A stretch of DNA of 5,501 nucleotides, from contig SLKW01000229.1 in NCBI GenBank assembly GCA_007134405.1, forward strand, positions 1 to 5,501. The letters run 5' to 3'. Source of the DNA: Paracoccaceae bacterium (GTDB lineage: Bacteria; Pseudomonadota; Alphaproteobacteria; Rhodobacterales; Rhodobacteraceae). The notes beneath the pieces are model-generated. The model saw nothing but the letters and a program-made list of their open reading frames with translations. It did no database searches and was not told where the DNA came from. A program made the translations under genes and the position numbers. Of the stretch, positions 46-5,501 are shown one piece after another. Position 1 is the stretch's first letter, and each line of letters starts with the position of its first letter.

Positions 46-741
46 TCACCCGGCTTGACGCGCGCGCCAGATGGCGCCGTCGCCCAGGCCCTCGACGAAG
101 GCCGCATGGGCCGACAGTTCGGCCTCGGTCAGACGCGGCGGCAGGGCGCGCGGTCGGGCCGGCGGGCGCCAGGCCTGGGCCTGAGGCATCGGGCCCGACG
201 CGGTCGTCACCGTCAGTGCGAAATCGGGCTGCCGGCCGCCGATGAGTTCCAGATAGACCTCGGCAAGAATCTCGCTGTCCAGCAGCGCGCCGTGCTTTTC
301 GCGGGCCGAATTGTCCACGCCGAAGCGCCGGCACAGCGCGTCGAGCGATGCCGGCGAGCCGGGAAACCGCCGGCGGGCAATCGCCAGGGTGTCGATCGCG
401 ATGTCGGCCGCGAGAAGCGGTCGCCCCGCCCATTTCAGCTCCGCATTCAGGAATTTCATGTCGAACGCGGCGTTGTGGATCACAAGCCGCGCATCGGCGA
501 CGAAGGTCAGGAAGGCATCCGCGATCTGGGTGAAGGGGGGAAACCCGCGCAGGAAGTCTTCCGCCAGCCCGTGAACCTCGAAAGCTTCGGTGGGCATGTC
601 GCGCTGGGGGTTGATGTATTGATGATAGGTGCGCCCCGTGGGCATGTGGTTGAACAGCTCGACCGCACCGATCTCCACGATCCGGTGGCCTTCGGCCGGC
701 TCGAAACCGGTCGTCTCGGTGTCTAGGACGATTTCGCGCAT
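46..741 (-). CDS. dnaQ: DNA polymerase III epsilon subunit (3'-5' proofreading exonuclease)
   Basis: 231 aa. Epsilon proofreads for the replicative polymerase in the cytoplasm by removing mispaired 3' nucleotides, bound between the alpha subunit and the sliding clamp. All five DEDDh-family active-site residues are visible: D7 and E9 in LDTETTG (Exo I), D94 in HNAAFD (Exo II), and H150 and D155 in HGALLD (Exo III). The nuclease domain covers about residues 1-170. The remaining ~60 residues are a proline- and alanine-rich tail ([14 protein letters not shown]), which in this family links to alpha; I see no certain clamp-binding motif. The ATG is supported by a GAGGA Shine-Dalgarno site (748-752, minus strand) 6 nt upstream, inside the end of coaE. 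It is the last gene of the maf-aroE-coaE-dnaQ operon, 3 nt after coaE. Bases 1-45 beyond its TGA show no recognisable gene or terminator. Confidence 0.96.
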
Positions 742-744
742 GCT

Positions 745-1335
745 CTATCCTCGTGTCAGCTCGTCGATCAGCGCCTCGACCGCGGCGCGGGTCTGCCCCA
801 GTCCCGTCGTCTCGATCACATGGGTGGCGCGCGCCCGTTTCTCGTCGTTGGGCAATTGCTTGGCAAGAAGAGTCTCGAAGGTTTCCTCGGAGACGCCCGG
901 CCGGGAAAGAACGCGCTTGCGCTGAACCTCGGGCGGCGCGGTGACGGTCAGGGTCGCATCGCAAAGCGCGTCGGCGCCGGTCTCGAAGAGCAGGGGTATG
1001 TCGAGCACGACCAGCGGCGTTCCGGCCTGGCGGTGGCGGGCGACGAACTCCGTGCGGTCCGCCGCGACCAGGGGGTGAACGGCCGCCTCGATCGCCTTGA
1101 GCGCCGACGGGTCCGCCGCGATCCAGTCCTTGAGCGCGGCCCGGTCGATCGCGCCGTCCTTGTGCGCCTGCGGACACAGCTCTGCCAGCGGTGCAACCGC
1201 CTCGCCGCCCACGCCGTAGAGGCGATGCACGGTCGCATCGGCATCCCAGACCGGAACGCCGGCGTCGCGAAAGAACCCGGCGGTCGTGGACTTGCCCATT
1301 CCGATCGATCCGGTCAGGCCCAGAACCACGGTCAT
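745..1335 (-). CDS. coaE: Dephospho-CoA kinase
   Basis: 196 aa, normal for the family. The enzyme phosphorylates the 3'-hydroxyl of the ribose of dephospho-CoA with ATP, the last step of coenzyme A synthesis, in the cytosol. Visible motifs in order: the P-loop GSIGMGKS (residues 9-16) within GLTGSIGMGKST; the DAD motif (31-33), which in this family includes the catalytic aspartate; HP at 87-88; DIPLLFETG (112-120), the signature of the CoA-binding/lid region; and a C-terminal QLPNDEKRARA stretch matching the family's conserved Q...K.RA segment. The ATG overlaps the TGA of aroE by 4 nt (ATGA). No clear Shine-Dalgarno site lies upstream, so translation probably depends on coupling to aroE. It ends in TAG 3 nt before dnaQ. 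Placement between aroE and dnaQ is the usual alphaproteobacterial arrangement. Confidence 0.96.
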   Translation of the reverse strand: MTVVLGLTGSIGMGKSTTAGFFRDAGVPVWDADATVHRLYGVGGEAVAPLAELCPQAHKDGAIDRAALKDWIAADPSALKAIEAAVHPLVAADRTEFVARHRQAGTPLVVLDIPLLFETGADALCDATLTVTAPPEVQRKRVLSRPGVSEETFETLLAKQLPNDEKRARATHVIETTGLGQTRAAVEALIDELTRG

Positions 1336-2156
1336 GGCGCAAGCACGGCATCGCGCAGCGCCGCATCCACGGCTGGACGCAACCCGAACCAGCCTTCGAA
1401 ACCGGGCACCGCCTGATGCAGAAGCATCCCCAGCCCGTCGACCGCCGGATTGCCCCGGGCGCGCGCCGCCGCCAGAAGCGCGGTTTCGAGCGGCGCGTAG
1501 ACCAGGTCATTGACGATCGCATCCTGCGGCAGCGCATCCAGCGAAAGCTCGAGCGGCGGCTTGCCGGTCATGCCAAGCGCCGCGGCGTTCACGAGCGTGT
1601 CGCAGCCCGACAGCATGTCCGAACGCGCCTGCCAGGGGTGCACGCGGATCGCCGCGCCGAATTCCTGGGCCAGGTGCGCCGCGCGGTCGGGTGTCCGATT
1701 GGTGAGCCTGATCTCGTGCGCGCCCTGGTCGAGAAGGGCCACGATGATCGCCCGTGCCGCACCTCCGGCCCCGATGACGGCGGCGACCCGTGGGCGCCAG
1801 TCCGGCCGATGATCGAGGATGTTCCGCGTGAAACCGTAGGCATCGGTATTGTCCGCGCGAATCCCCGCGTCGCTGAAGAACAGGGTATTCGCCGCACCGA
1901 TCCGGCGCGCGGTGGGCGTCGCCTCGGCGGCGAGCGCGAGCGCGGCCTCCTTGTGGGGCAGGGTCACGTTGGCGCCGCGAAATCCGAGCCTGGGCAGGAG
2001 CGCGAGCGCTGCCTCCAGATCTTCAGGCGCGACCTGGAGCGGAACGTAATGGCCGGCAATCTTGTGGCGCTCAAGCCAGTGTCCGTGCAGGCGGGGCGAC
2101 CGGCTATGGGTCACCGGATAGCCAAGCACGGCAGCGATCGGAGGTGAGGGTGTCAT
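1332..2156 (-). CDS. aroE: Shikimate dehydrogenase (NADP+)
   Basis: 274 aa. It reduces 3-dehydroshikimate to shikimate with NADPH in the pathway to chorismate and the aromatic amino acids. The N-terminal substrate domain has GYPVTHSRSP (12-21, the serine pair that binds the shikimate carboxylate), NVTLPHKE with catalytic K69, AANTL with N90, and DNTDAYGF with catalytic D105. The Rossmann domain has the dinucleotide loop GAGGAARA (129-136) and the adenine-phosphate-binding NRT (153-155). The C-terminal part has DLVYAPLETALL and DGLGMLLHQA with Q248. The usual N-T-T/S-S-x-G-M segment reads NAAALGM here (190-196). An in-frame ORF runs 42 codons further upstream into maf, but the chosen ATG begins right before the first conserved strand and overlaps the maf stop by 4 nt (ATGA), the same junction as aroE/coaE. 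A GGAG sequence lies about 10 nt upstream. Confidence 0.96.
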   Translation of the reverse strand: MTPSPPIAAVLGYPVTHSRSPRLHGHWLERHKIAGHYVPLQVAPEDLEAALALLPRLGFRGANVTLPHKEAALALAAEATPTARRIGAANTLFFSDAGIRADNTDAYGFTRNILDHRPDWRPRVAAVIGAGGAARAIIVALLDQGAHEIRLTNRTPDRAAHLAQEFGAAIRVHPWQARSDMLSGCDTLVNAAALGMTGKPPLELSLDALPQDAIVNDLVYAPLETALLAAARARGNPAVDGLGMLLHQAVPGFEGWFGLRPAVDAALRDAVLAP

Positions 2157-2749
2157 CCGGCGATATCTCCGCGCCGTATCAGGAAGGTGAGGAGTTCGAT
2201 CAACGGCAGTCCGAGGATGGCGTGGTAATCGCCAGAGATCCGTTCGAAGAGACGTATTCCGATTCCTTCCAGCTGGTAGCACCCGACGCAGTGGTGAATT
2301 TCTGACCAGTTTGCCTCAACGTAATCAAGGATGTAGTTGTCAGAAAGGTCACGCATCTTAAGCTCCGGCGTGCTGACGTGGCGCCAGATGGGCTGTGCCT
2401 GACTGTAAAGCACGGCGGCGGTGTGAAGCCGGTGCGGGCGACCGCGCAATTGCCGAAGCTGCCTGATCGCATCCTCGGGCGTCGCGGGTTTCGTATGCAG
2501 CCTGCCCTCGCAGTCAAGTATCTGGTCGCACCCGAGGACCAGAGCCTGCGGGTTTCGGCCCGCGACCTTCATGGCTTTCTGTTCGGCCAGGGCATCGGCG
2601 ATGTCGCGCGGCCTGGCGCCTTCCGCTTCGAGAGACGCCCGCAGCGCGTTCTCGTCGATCCGGGCCAGGACGACGTCGAATTCGACCCCCGCCTGCCGCA
2701 GAAGCTGCGCGCGGATCGTCGAGGCCGAGGCGAGGATGAGGACAGTCAT
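2153..2749 (-). CDS. maf: Maf-family nucleotide pyrophosphatase, YceF-like
   Basis: 198 aa. Maf proteins hydrolyse nucleoside triphosphates to the monophosphate and pyrophosphate, mostly non-canonical, methylated or pyrimidine nucleotides. Seen here: the N-terminal signature LASASTIRAQLL with S8, S10 and R13; ARIDE (29-33); EQKA with K58; LGCDQIL with D75 and Q76; KP at 87-88; and a C-terminal EGIGIRLFERISGDY block followed by ILGLPL. The GCDQ form, instead of GADT, resembles the YceF subfamily (7-methyl-GTP pyrophosphatase in E. coli) more than the dTTP/UTP-cleaving YhdE type; the exact substrate is inferred. The frame stays open 91 codons upstream to 3022, but that extension crosses the DnaA-box region and looks unlike protein, so I chose the ATG at 2749, which gives the standard family length. 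No good Shine-Dalgarno site precedes it. It is the first gene of the leftward operon. GC content falls to 50% over 2221-2340. Confidence 0.92.
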   Translation of the reverse strand: MTVLILASASTIRAQLLRQAGVEFDVVLARIDENALRASLEAEGARPRDIADALAEQKAMKVAGRNPQALVLGCDQILDCEGRLHTKPATPEDAIRQLRQLRGRPHRLHTAAVLYSQAQPIWRHVSTPELKMRDLSDNYILDYVEANWSEIHHCVGCYQLEGIGIRLFERISGDYHAILGLPLIELLTFLIRRGDIAG

Positions 2750-2850
2750 GGGGAAAAGTCGTGTAGAGCGCGCGGCAAGCACGGGGGAGAAAACGGCGAC
2801 CCGGTCTGGATGGCGCGTTCGGCGCGTCCTTGTCAAGAAATGCGCACCGG

Positions 2851-2859
2851 TTTTCCACG
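2851..2859 (+). promoter_or_regulatory. DnaA box-like site, TTTTCCACG (7/9)
   Basis: Differs from TTATCCACA at positions 3 and 9. A T at position 3 is common in functional boxes; the final G weakens it. It is the leftmost box-like sequence of the cluster, about 100 bp upstream of the maf start codon. Confidence 0.45.
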
Positions 2860-2867
2860 GGGGTACT

Positions 2868-2876
2868 TTGTCCCCA
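2868..2876 (+). promoter_or_regulatory. Weak DnaA box-like site, TTGTCCCCA (7/9)
   Basis: Two mismatches to TTATCCACA (positions 3 and 7). It follows the site at 2851 by 17 bp in the same orientation. The position-7 change lies in the normally conserved CCACA core, so binding is doubtful except as a low-affinity site helped by neighbours. Confidence 0.25.
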
Positions 2877-2901
2877 GAATGGCACAGGCAAGGGAGAAGG
2901 C

Positions 2902-2910
2902 TGTGGATAA
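2902..2910 (-). promoter_or_regulatory. Consensus DnaA box, TTATCCACA (9/9)
   Basis: The plus strand reads TGTGGATAA, so the minus strand carries the exact high-affinity DnaA consensus. A GAGTC (GANTC) site, the CcrM methylation sequence of alphaproteobacteria, starts 6 bp to its right at 2917-2921. The next 40-60 bp to the right become AT-rich. This would be the anchor site for DnaA in the origin. Confidence 0.75.
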
Positions 2911-2953
2911 GTTTTCGAGTCTCTACGCCAAGTTTCAGATTTGATTTGTATAT

Positions 2954-2978
2954 TTTCCCACATGAGTTTTGTGGAAAG
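2954..2978. promoter_or_regulatory. Inverted pair of DnaA box-like sites
   Basis: TTTCCCACA on the plus strand (2954-2962) faces CTTTCCACA on the minus strand (2970-2978), with 7 bp between. Each matches TTATCCACA at 7 of 9 positions and both keep the terminal CACA. The pair forms an imperfect inverted repeat: one arm is TTTCC-C-ACA and the other TTTCCACA. This could hold two DnaA molecules in opposite orientation. The flanking sequence from 2936 is AT-rich. Confidence 0.45.
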
Positions 2979-2987
2979 ACTGCTTTC

Positions 2988-3011
2988 TGTGGGCAGCTGT
3001 GTGGGCAGATG
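2988..3011. repeat. Tandem 12-bp direct repeat in the origin region
   Basis: TGTGGGCAGCTG (2988-2999) is followed directly by TGTGGGCAGATG (3000-3011), identical at 11 of 12 positions. On the minus strand each unit contains CTGCCCACA, sharing the CCACA end of a DnaA box but only 6/9 overall. The exact 12-bp spacing of two identical cores points to a protein-binding array, either low-affinity DnaA sites or an unknown origin-binding protein. Confidence 0.55.
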
Positions 3012-3022
3012 AAGAATACCAC

Positions 3023-3031
3023 TTATCCGCA
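3023..3031 (+). promoter_or_regulatory. DnaA box, TTATCCGCA (8/9)
   Basis: One mismatch (A to G at position 7) to the consensus. It is followed at once by GGCCC (3032-3036) and then a pyrimidine-rich, AT-rich tract. It is the last box before the presumed unwinding region, so it would be the one that places DnaA next to the melted strand. Confidence 0.6.
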
Positions 3032-3034
3032 GGC

Positions 3035-3081
3035 CCTACATCTTCATCTTTCTTTTCATAATCTATTTATTGAGATGTAGG
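3035..3081. repeat. 9-bp inverted repeat around AT-rich tract
   Basis: CCTACATCT (3035-3043) and AGATGTAGG (3073-3081) are perfect reverse complements, separated by 29 bp (3044-3072) in which only 6 bases are G or C. With one extra base in the left arm the match extends two more positions (CCTACATCTTCA against TGAGATGTAGG). There is no T-run after the right arm and the loop is long, so an intrinsic terminator is unlikely. The element lies just upstream of the hemJ ribosome binding site. Confidence 0.6.
3037..3072. other. Candidate DNA unwinding element
   Basis: This is the most AT-rich stretch of the window: 3041-3080 holds 10 G/C in 40. It starts with the tandem hexamer CATCTT (3039-3050, two perfect copies), continues through a pyrimidine-rich run and ends in CATAATCTATTTATT. 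It begins 5 bp after a DnaA box. In known origins such a segment melts first and single-stranded DNA is bound by DnaA. It may also hold the hemJ promoter (a -10-like CATAAT lies at 3057-3062). Confidence 0.55.
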
Positions 3082-3086
3082 TGATC

Positions 3087-3091
3087 GGAGG
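3087..3091 (+). promoter_or_regulatory. Ribosome binding site of hemJ
   Basis: GGAGG lies 4 bp before the ATG at 3096 (or GGAG with a 5-bp gap), inside GGAGGGGAC. It decides the hemJ start: the in-frame GTG at 3081 lies upstream of this site and has no Shine-Dalgarno of its own, and the ATG at 3075 is followed directly by a stop codon. Confidence 0.7.
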
Positions 3092-3095
3092 GGAC

Positions 3096-3533
3096 ATGCT
3101 GACCGACTGGTATCTTTGGATCAAAGCTTTCCATATCATGGCCGTGATCGCCTGGATGGCCGGGCTGTTCTATCTGCCGAGGCTCTTCGTCTATCATGTC
3201 GAGCGCGCAGAGGGTCCCGAACCGTCGGCGACGCTCGCGGTCATGGAGGTGAAGCTCCTGCGGGTGATCATGAATCCCGCCATGATCGCGAGCTGGCTTC
3301 TCGGCCTCATGCTGGTCGCGATTCCGGGTGTGGTCGATTTCGGAGCGCCCTGGGTCTGGCTGAAGTTCGTCGGAATCGTGTCGATGACCTGGTTTCATAT
3401 GTGGCTCGCCCGTCATCGGCGGTTCCTGGCCGAGGACGGACCGGTGCTGACGGGTCGCCAATATCGGCTGATGAACGAAGTGCCGACCGTCCTGATGGTT
3501 CTGATCGTGCTTTCCGTCGTCGTTAAGTTCTGA
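3096..3533 (+). CDS. hemJ: Protoporphyrinogen IX oxidase, HemJ type
   Basis: 145 aa. HemJ oxidises protoporphyrinogen IX to protoporphyrin IX, the next-to-last step of heme synthesis and the branch point to bacteriochlorophyll. It is an integral inner-membrane protein unrelated to HemG and HemY. About four membrane segments can be seen: residues 7-28, 57-77, 86-104 and 129-143. Conserved family features are present: K10 and H13 in WIKAFHIMAVIAWMAGLFYL, the PRLFVYH motif (28-34), WLKF (88-91), a HMWLARHRRF block (101-110), and RLMNEVP (124-130, the R-x-x-N-E-x-P motif). The conserved histidine early in helix 1 is a candidate heme ligand. The first gene to the right of the presumed origin, it is alone on its transcript unless it reads through the 141-bp gap into rho. 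No hairpin terminator follows its TGA. The family assignment is firm; the electron acceptor is unknown. Confidence 0.93.
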   Translation: MLTDWYLWIKAFHIMAVIAWMAGLFYLPRLFVYHVERAEGPEPSATLAVMEVKLLRVIMNPAMIASWLLGLMLVAIPGVVDFGAPWVWLKFVGIVSMTWFHMWLARHRRFLAEDGPVLTGRQYRLMNEVPTVLMVLIVLSVVVKF

Positions 3534-3558
3534 GGTTGCTGTCCGCCGCTGCGCATCG

Positions 3559-3587
3559 TTGACTCAGGGCGCGTTCTTCCCTATCTG
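3559..3587 (+). promoter_or_regulatory. Possible sigma-70-type promoter for rho
   Basis: TTGACT (3559-3564, 5/6 to TTGACA), 17-bp spacer, then TATCTG (3582-3587, 3/6 to TATAAT). It lies in the 141-bp gap between hemJ and rho and would give a leader of roughly 80 nt before the rho ATG. The -35 is good and the -10 poor. GACTC at 3561-3565 is a GANTC methylation site inside the -35. The leader also holds a direct repeat CGGTGCTG (3598-3605 and 3608-3615) and the palindrome CCCCGGGG (3659-3666), whose right half is the only Shine-Dalgarno-like sequence for rho. Rho usually controls its own leader; nothing here proves that. Confidence 0.35.
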
Positions 3588-3674
3588 GATGCCTTCGCGG
3601 TGCTGTCCGGTGCTGGCGCTTCCCTTCGATACCACAACTGATGGCACGGCTTGTCCGGCCCCGGGGTTTCTATC

Positions 3675-4946
3675 ATGTCGCAAAATCGTTTGAACCTCTC
3701 CGATCTGAAGGCCCAGACTCCGGCTGCGCTCTTGGACATGGCCGAGGATCTGGACATCGAGAACGCGCCTTCGATGCGCAAGGGCGAGATGATGTTCTCG
3801 ATCCTGAAGGAGCGCGCGGAGGAAGGTTGGGAAATCTCGGGCGATGGCGTGCTCGAGGTCTTGCAGGATGGCTTTGGCTTTCTGCGCTCGCCCGAAGCGA
3901 ACTACCTGCCGGGACCGGACGACATCTACGTGGCGCCCGACATGATCCGGCAATTCTCGTTGAGAACCGGCGACACGGTCGAGGGCGTTATCCAGGCTCC
4001 GGCCGAGAACGAGCGTTACTTTGCCCTCACCCGCGCCACCAAGATCAACTTCGACGATCCCGAACGCGCGCGCCACAAGGTTCACTTCGACAACCTGACG
4101 CCGCTTTACCCCGACGAACGGTTCAAGATGGAGATCGAGGATCCGACGATCAAGGATCGCTCGGCCCGGATCATCGATATCGTGGCACCGATCGGCAAGG
4201 GCCAGCGCGCGTTGATCGTGGCGCCGCCGCGCACCGGCAAGACCGTGCTTTTGCAGAACATCGCGCATTCGATCGAGGTCAATCACCCCGAATGCTACCT
4301 GATCGTGCTGTTGATCGACGAACGGCCCGAGGAAGTGACCGACATGCAGCGCTCGGTGAAGGGCGAAGTCGTCTCCTCGACCTTCGACGAACCGGCGACG
4401 CGGCACGTCGCGGTGGCCGAGATGGTCATCGAGAAGGCCAAGCGCCTCGTCGAACACAAACGCGACGTGGTTATCCTGCTCGATTCGATCACTCGCCTGG
4501 GTCGCGCGTTCAATACCGTGGTGCCTTCCTCGGGCAAGGTGCTGACGGGGGGCGTCGACGCCAACGCGCTGCAGCGGCCGAAGAGATTTTTCGGGGCAGC
4601 GCGAAATATCGAGGAGGGTGGTAGCCTGACGATCATCGCGACCGCGCTCATCGATACCGGCAGCCGCATGGACGAGGTGATCTTCGAGGAGTTCAAGGGC
4701 ACCGGCAACAGCGAACTCGTGCTCGACCGCAAGATCGCCGACAAACGTGTCTTCCCGGCCATGGACATCCTCAAGTCCGGCACGCGCAAAGAGGACCTGC
4801 TGATCGACAAGGGGAACCTGCAGAAAACCTTTGTCCTGCGCCGGATCCTCAACCCGATGGGCACGACCGATGCGATCGAGTTCCTGATTTCGAAGCTGAA
4901 GCAGACCAAGACGAACTCGGAATTCTTCGATTCGATGAATTCGTGA
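3675..4946 (+). CDS. rho: Transcription termination factor Rho
   Basis: 423 aa, the usual length. Rho is a hexameric RNA-dependent ATPase/helicase that loads on unstructured RNA and ends transcription. Domains in order: N-terminal helical domain (about 5-50, [11 protein letters not shown] onward); cold-shock-like RNA-binding fold (about 55-120) with the [12 protein letters not shown] motif (65-73); and a RecA-like ATPase. ATPase motifs: Walker A APPRTGKT (183-190, catalytic lysine K189); IDERPEEV (214-221) with the catalytic-glutamate region; Walker [15 protein letters not shown] (265-278); Q-loop TGGVDANAL (291-299); and the R-loop/bicyclomycin region FKGTGN (340-345). E. coli has K-A where this protein has R-T before GKT in the P-loop. 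The ATG is preferred over the TTG at 3651, which would add 8 residues and lacks support; the Shine-Dalgarno is weak (CGGGG, 8 nt upstream). mnmE follows after 13 nt. No insertions or missing motifs. Confidence 0.97.
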
Positions 4947-4959
4947 TGGGCCGTGCGGC

Positions 4960-5501
4960 ATGGACACGATTGTCGCCCAGGCAAGCGCGCGAGGCCGCGC
5001 CGGTGTCGCGGTAGTCCGAATCTCGGGCCCCGATGCGTGGCGCGCCTGCGAACGGATGGCGGGCGCCATTCCTCCGCCGCGCACCACGTCGCTGCGGCGA
5101 CTGCGCGATCGGCACGGAGAAACGCTTGACCACGCTCTGGTAGTGACCTTCGAAGAGGGGCGCAGCTTTACGGGCGAGAAGATCACGGAACTTCATTTGC
5201 ACGGGAGCGTGGCCGTGGTTTCGGCGGTGATGCGCGAGTTGGTGACCTTCGATGGCCTCCGCCCGGCGGAGCCAGGCGAGTTCACGCGGCGTGCCTTCGA
5301 GGCGGGCCGGCTGGATCTGACCGAAGTCGAAGGGCTGGGGGATCTGCTCGAGGCCGAGACCGACGCACAGCGCAAGCACGCGCAACGCATCATGGAAGGC
5401 AACTTGGCGCGGATGGTCGCGGATTGGCGCGCAGATCTCCTCCAGGCCCTGGCGATGAGCGAAGCCGCGATCGACTTTGCCGACGAGGACCTGCCGCCCG
5501 A
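4960..5501 (+). CDS. mnmE: tRNA uridine-5-carboxymethylaminomethyl modification GTPase MnmE (5' part)
   Basis: The first 180 codons, open to the window edge; the full protein is normally about 430-450 aa. MnmE (TrmE) acts with MnmG to modify the wobble uridine U34 of several tRNAs, using a methylene-tetrahydrofolate unit and GTP hydrolysis. Seen: the typical start [34 protein letters not shown] (70-83) and [20 protein letters not shown] (101-120), which belong to the N-terminal folate-binding domain (about 1-120). The start of the central helical domain follows, with [13 protein letters not shown] and [10 protein letters not shown] (168-177). The G domain and the C-terminal C-x-G-K motif lie outside the window. 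It starts 13 bp after rho, so the two are probably cotranscribed. In alphaproteobacteria mnmG, rsmG, parA and parB usually follow; that cannot be seen here. Confidence 0.95.

Follow-up and report, generated by a model that had tools for sequence, protein, structure and literature searches.

The 346-bp intergenic region between the divergent genes maf and hemJ raises the question of whether it is the site at which this Rhodobacterales bacterium begins to replicate its chromosome, as an initial annotation of the sequence had proposed. The window analyzed here, a stretch of 5,501 nucleotides, is a complete contig (G000:C424) of a 2.83-Mb MAG that comprises 502 contigs and is 83% complete, and its closest named relatives by HemJ are Rhodobacteraceae, including Pararhodobacter sp. 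SW119 (81%). We propose that the maf-hemJ gap is the chromosomal oriC, with a probability of about 0.93. This proposal is supported by the DnaA boxes, by an AT-rich block recurring in relatives, by a GC-skew minimum lying at the orthologous gap in one related genome (G020) and near it in another (G017), and by the nearness of parS and parB. The origin is of the ordinary chromosomal kind, with a predicted anatomy sharper than the one first given (Table 1).

Table 1. Positions of genes and of predicted origin features in the 5,501-nucleotide window
Feature	Position	Strand	Details
dnaQ (dnaQ-type exonuclease)	46-741	-	Pfam; leftward arm of conserved cluster
coaE	745-1335	-	Pfam; leftward arm of conserved cluster
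aroE	1332-2156	-	Pfam; leftward arm of conserved cluster
maf	2153..2749	-	PF02545
Further DnaA box	2749-2757	-	7/9; overlaps first base of maf
maf-hemJ intergenic region, predicted chromosomal oriC	2750..3095	.	346 bp
DnaA box TTTTCCACG	2851..2859	+	7/9
DnaA box TTGTCCCCA	2868..2876	+	7/9
DnaA box TTATCCACA	2902..2910	-	9/9
DnaA box TTTCCCACA	2954..2962	+	7/9
DnaA box CTTTCCACA	2970..2978	-	7/9
DnaA box TTATCCGCA	3023..3031	+	8/9; adjoins conserved block; predicted anchor of unwinding system
Conserved block GGCCCTAC-ATCTTCATC-TTTCTTTT-AT-rich	3032..3071	+	PWM 37.6 bits
AT-rich predicted DNA unwinding element	3036..3076	.	Window's lowest-GC 36-mers lie here (22%)
Predicted DnaA-trios, eight 3'-NAN-5' trinucleotides, bottom strand	3040..3063	-	8-nt spacer from box; rule of PMC8287927
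hemJ	3096..3533	+	PF03653, UPF0093
rho	3675..4946	+	Pfam
mnmE	4960..5501	+	Pfam; cut by contig end, frame carries on in C427

The box cluster occupies 181 bp (2851-3031) and comprises one perfect box, one box matching at eight of nine positions and four matching at seven, exactly as counted in the initial annotation. Compared with 2,000 dinucleotide shuffles of positions 2751-3095, the gap holds more boxes than chance predicts at every threshold: 1 versus 0.002 expected without mismatch (P 0.002), 2 versus 0.06 with at most one mismatch (P 0.0015), and 6 versus 0.82 with at most two, a number that none of the 2,000 shuffles reached. Over the whole 2.83-Mb MAG, there are four perfect boxes versus six occurrences of the reversed control pattern; it is the cluster, not perfect boxes as such, that is unusual in this MAG. 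The repeats noted at the outset are present but minor, consisting of a 12-bp tandem pair together with three inverted pairs, all of them short; the two best DnaA boxes, facing each other, make up one of these inverted pairs. The tandem pair is made of two copies of TGTGGGCAGMTG located between boxes, at 2988-3011.

The base composition supports part of what had been described. A GC content of 40% fits the hemJ half of the gap (42% over the 196 bp of 2900-3095), not the gap as a whole (51%), in a window of 64% GC. Beside the boxes, GC content drops to 22% at 3040-3075, within the AT-rich predicted unwinding element, whereas the lowest-GC 36-mer of the window outside the gap has 39%. The divergent polarity of the flanking genes holds, with dnaQ, coaE, aroE, and maf read leftward and hemJ, rho, and mnmE read rightward; the names of these flanking genes come from Pfam, and remaining neighbors were identified by position or by eye.

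The conservation in relatives, suggested earlier as a check, is extensive. A divergent maf-hemJ gap is found in 70 of the 80 named relatives, and 67 of these 70 gaps keep at least two boxes of one mismatch or fewer. Boxes with at most two mismatches reach a median of 7 per gap (range 3 to 11, 70 loci) versus 1.3 in mononucleotide shuffles, and control windows of 400 bp (n = 643) hold 0.86 such boxes, eight windows reaching 4. The ten other named loci are two that are cut by a contig end (L064 and L117) and eight that belong to Paracoccus. No maf match was found in the flank examined (up to 5 kb) of all eight Paracoccus loci, and their best box window still lies just before hemJ; an upstream gene is aroE in L057. 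A DctM transporter gene (2519-4594) stands upstream of the gap in Paracoccus L093, where the origin boxes still adjoin hemJ.

The neighbors of the gap change in other ways. hemJ is missing, leaving the order maf, gap, rho, in eight loci of the same genus and in L138, L139, and L148, with 3 to 8 boxes of at most two mismatches in 520 bp. Two same-genus loci (L010/L039 and L013/L041) have no box of one mismatch or fewer. Among other family members, a DUF299 kinase/pyrophosphorylase gene lies between maf and the gap in L281 and L282 (G018 and G032), an order that is possibly intermediate towards that of Caulobacter, and both DUF299 and hemE flank the gap in L283. In G034 (L278), maf and hemJ are 1.5 kb apart with a weak cluster between them (score 5, versus 6 elsewhere in 6.4 kb), and the origin may have diverged or be situated elsewhere. 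At the class level, L269, L271, L273, and L277 have their boxes between maf-DUF299 and hemE, followed farther on by hemJ-rho; L275 has them between maf and hemE; and L270, L272, L274, and L276 show box-cluster scores of 3 to 6 between maf and hemJ.

GC skew changes no sign at the gap within the window, which at 5.5 kb is too short to tell. Because the MAG, with its 502 contigs, is too broken for this analysis, skew was sampled in 20-kb stretches in two relatives: G020, a single-contig genome of 3,558,757 bp from the same family, of which about one-third was covered, and G017, a same-genus genome in two contigs, of whose large contig (4,423,864 bp) about one-quarter was covered. The cumulative skew minimum of G020 is at 3,476,001 (1-kb resolution), within 2 kb of the maf-hemJ gap at about 3,477,449-3,477,858 and roughly opposite the maximum near 1.6 Mb; dnaA, at base 316, is 81 kb away. 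The agreement expected between skew minimum and gap was looser in G017: the minimum, at 553,001, lies 23 kb from the gap, which stands just before the start of maf at 576,534, and close to the gap the curve shows just a smaller dip, at 579 kb, though the gap is nearer to the minimum than dnaA (420,206; 132 kb). The gap is moreover the top box cluster of both samples, with a score of 18 in G020 (next, 10; 24,366 overlapping 400-bp windows in 1.24 Mb) and of 10 in G017 (next, 6; 22,794 overlapping 400-bp windows in 1.16 Mb).

The partition genes point to the same region. At up to two mismatches, parS occurs once in the MAG, as a perfect copy on contig C427, and the best parB match lies 1.5 kb beyond it on this contig. 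C427 overlaps the end of the window by 121 identical bases, and the mnmE frame crosses the join to give a 426-amino-acid protein; parS is therefore about 5 kb to the right of the gap. Measured from the hemJ start, 60 of the 70 named gap-bearing loci extend for 5.2 kb, and every one of these 60 has parS (TGTTYCACGTGRAACA), at a distance of about 3.1 to 3.3 and/or 5.0 to 5.2 kb.

On the hemJ side of the gap, a MAFFT alignment of 17 gaps and a listing of 97 revealed a fixed order: a box, CCCTAC, ATC repeats, a pyrimidine tract, and an AT-rich tract. The PWM of this block was derived from 52 of 66 training loci, 14 being dropped for lack of a good anchor; the four closest relatives of the window and L045 were kept out of training, and the training loci have a HemJ identity of 71% or less. 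The base table of the trio analysis has high values at CCCTAC by construction, its anchors having been picked for CCCTAC likeness, and the claim of conservation rests on the held-out PWM. The best other matches listed for the window overlap the block and reach 5.5 bits or less. On 120 stretches of 20 kb (2.4 Mb from G020 and G017), the top two matches are the two gaps, at 41.1 and 39.2 bits, and the next is at 16.0. Of 103 distinct gaps, 37 were held out, that of the window among them; the block exceeds 16 bits in 34 of these 37 and in 63 of the 66 from training genomes, being absent or weak in the held-out L014, L024, and L127 and in the training genomes' L065, L085, and L110.

This conservation of the block within the family is well supported. 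Scores are 22.5 to 40.1 bits in the four same-genus loci with hemJ; among the eight without hemJ, six reach 39.2 to 45.5, L129 has 21.5, and L127 has 10.3; L138, L139, and L148 have 46.0, 20.1, and 21.4, and the Paracoccus loci range from 23.4 to 46.0. The block falls below 16 bits in family members L278, L282, and L283. At the class level, 9 of 11 loci score no higher than 14.4 bits in the interval from maf to hemJ; the block of L279 and L280 reaches 21 to 22 bits there, but higher chance matches occur elsewhere in these loci.

The role of the ATC repeats as DnaA-trios is a prediction. The published rule for origin unwinding, the BUS (as given in the available text of PMC8287927), combines a box, a spacer of up to 16 bp, and at least three 3'-NAN-5' trios. 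The window has this arrangement, with a box of one mismatch (two or fewer being allowed) at 3023-3031, a spacer of 8, and a run of 8 trios, a run matched by 1 of 2,000 shuffles. Across relatives, 103 of 120 gaps were retained after near-identical ones had been dropped, with spacers of up to 17 against the published limit of 16, and the rule discriminates only weakly: runs of at least three are found in 63 of the 103 gaps on the expected strand versus 54 on the other, and 14% of shuffles pass. Runs of at least five number 21 on the expected strand versus 9 on the other. In L141, L142, L145, and L147, another gene follows maf; these loci were excluded from the trio, stem, and gap-count analyses, and their genomes are covered instead as L281, L282, L283, and L270.

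Three other readings have to be weighed. The gap could do no more than serve as a promoter region for divergent genes under the control of DnaA, a known transcription regulator, with the origin elsewhere, such as at dnaA; maf and hemJ do diverge from a shared gap. However, the cluster persists where hemJ is missing or maf is not adjacent, the skew minimum is nearer to the gap than to dnaA in both G020 and G017, and the 6 kb around the dnaA of the MAG contain no box cluster, the best score being 2. We regard a mere promoter region as very improbable. The pyrimidine-rich block, for its part, could be an RNA element, serving hemJ or rho as a leader or terminator, rather than an unwinding element: it lies 25 to 64 bp before the hemJ start and would be transcribed if a promoter lies upstream. 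Yet the block precedes hemJ and rho alike, and no Rfam match was found up to E = 1 in 2700-3700. The perfect 9-bp inverted repeat CCTACATCT/AGATGTAGG that flanks the AT-rich element (3035-3043 and 3073-3081) was considered as a conserved hairpin and rejected, the mean stem score being 6.15 with the own arm versus 6.08 with swapped arms (standard deviation 0.10) over 94 of 120 blocks, weak or truncated blocks and near-duplicates having been dropped; this also speaks against an RNA element, which we consider unlikely.

A stronger objection leaves the origin in place and concerns only how it opens: the AT-rich element may melt by some other means than DnaA-trios, the ATC repeats being incidental. 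The weak discrimination of the trio rule over the 103 gaps agrees with this, as does the one-base phase shift between the preceding CTA and the start of the window's trio run. Moreover, the window trios are mainly 3'-TAG-5' and 3'-AAG-5', and none of the eight is 3'-GAT-5', the commonest trio in the available text of PMC8287927. On the other side, box, short GC-rich spacer, repeats, and AT-rich tract follow one another in this order in the window, the block recurs in most held-out gaps, and a run as long as that of the window is rare in shuffles. Opening without trios is possible, although in our view less likely than not.

We propose that, at a maf-hemJ origin, DnaA would bind the box cluster, and the box at 3023-3031 would be the point from which it extends along the adjoining trio-like repeats. 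The AT-rich stretch before hemJ would then melt, with unwinding presumably directed towards hemJ, and helicase loading would lead to a bidirectional start.

Compared with known origins, the gap resembles Cori of Caulobacter crescentus, which the available text of PMC1914354 places between hemE and DUF299/COG1806, in having DnaA boxes and an AT-rich region. Its place in the conserved gene cluster is also the same, as seen in the class-level L269, L271, L273, and L277. Unlike Cori, the window gap has maf and hemJ as neighbors, without DUF299, hemE, or hemH; the claim that it shares the gene set of the Caulobacter and Rickettsia origins does not hold for the hemE and DUF299/COG1806 pair. Gene orders alone suggest that the gap corresponds to the origin position of the Caulobacter type (DUF299, ori, hemE) after loss of DUF299, hemE, and hemH. 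No match for hemE (uroporphyrinogen decarboxylase, PF01208) was found in the 83%-complete MAG, which does have hemJ, and a missing contig may explain this.

Control of the Caulobacter type is probably lacking in this case, because the window gap contains neither a CtrA site (TTAA-N7-TTAA with one mismatch or fewer, or the TTWW form) nor an IHF consensus (WATCAN5WTR). This absence is claimed for the window only, because the gaps of relatives exceed shuffles: a CtrA site with at most one mismatch is found in 26 of 70 gaps versus 18.75 expected, the loose form averages 2.3 per gap versus 0.57 in mononucleotide shuffles, and an IHF site is found in 24 of 70 gaps versus 14% of shuffles. AT tracts may partly be behind the excess of IHF-like and loose CtrA-like matches.

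To call the origin undescribed, as was done initially, was too strong, since Kopejtka et al. (2019, PMC6699656) had already predicted oriCs with Ori-Finder in 101 Rhodobacteraceae chromosomes. That study concerns the same family and likewise uses boxes, the GC disparity minimum, and nearness to parAB as evidence, whereas the available part of its text names neither flanking genes nor an unwinding element. Similarly, the oriC1 region of Rhodobacter sphaeroides was located from cumulative GC skew together with boxes called by Ori-Finder, and ParB1 foci were tracked; in the available text of that study, gene neighbors are not given, and it uses microscopy where ours uses sequence alone (PMC6315104). 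According to the portions available, marker-frequency profiles have been published for Cereibacter sphaeroides and Paracoccus (PMC13342612), and dnaA was close to ori in three of five alphaproteobacterial orders surveyed (PMC8116508). In a limited literature search, we found no paper naming the maf-hemJ gap or the 40-bp block.

A broader idea, which we put forward tentatively and hold at just short of even odds, is that the Rhodobacterales possess a clade-specific opener: a fixed 40-bp module (box, CCCTAC spacer, ATC-phased trios, pyrimidine/AT tract) would sit at the ancestral alphaproteobacterial origin, without CtrA control, while the genes around it (hemE, hemH, DUF299, maf, and hemJ) change. 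For an order that is large and of ecological importance, our analysis provides a predicted origin with a predicted opening site, and it would make it possible to study how an origin of the Alphaproteobacteria functions without CtrA sites. In both sampled genomes, the 40-bp signature singled out the origin gap, and it could serve for fragmented MAGs, to which skew analysis is not applicable.

The fate of hemJ can also be followed within the genus. A close hemJ match (72 to 82% identity) is present in only 4 of the 17 same-genus genomes (G001, G002, G011, and G014), and eight others within G001-G017 have maf, the gap, and rho without hemJ, which seems to have been lost or moved beyond recognition.
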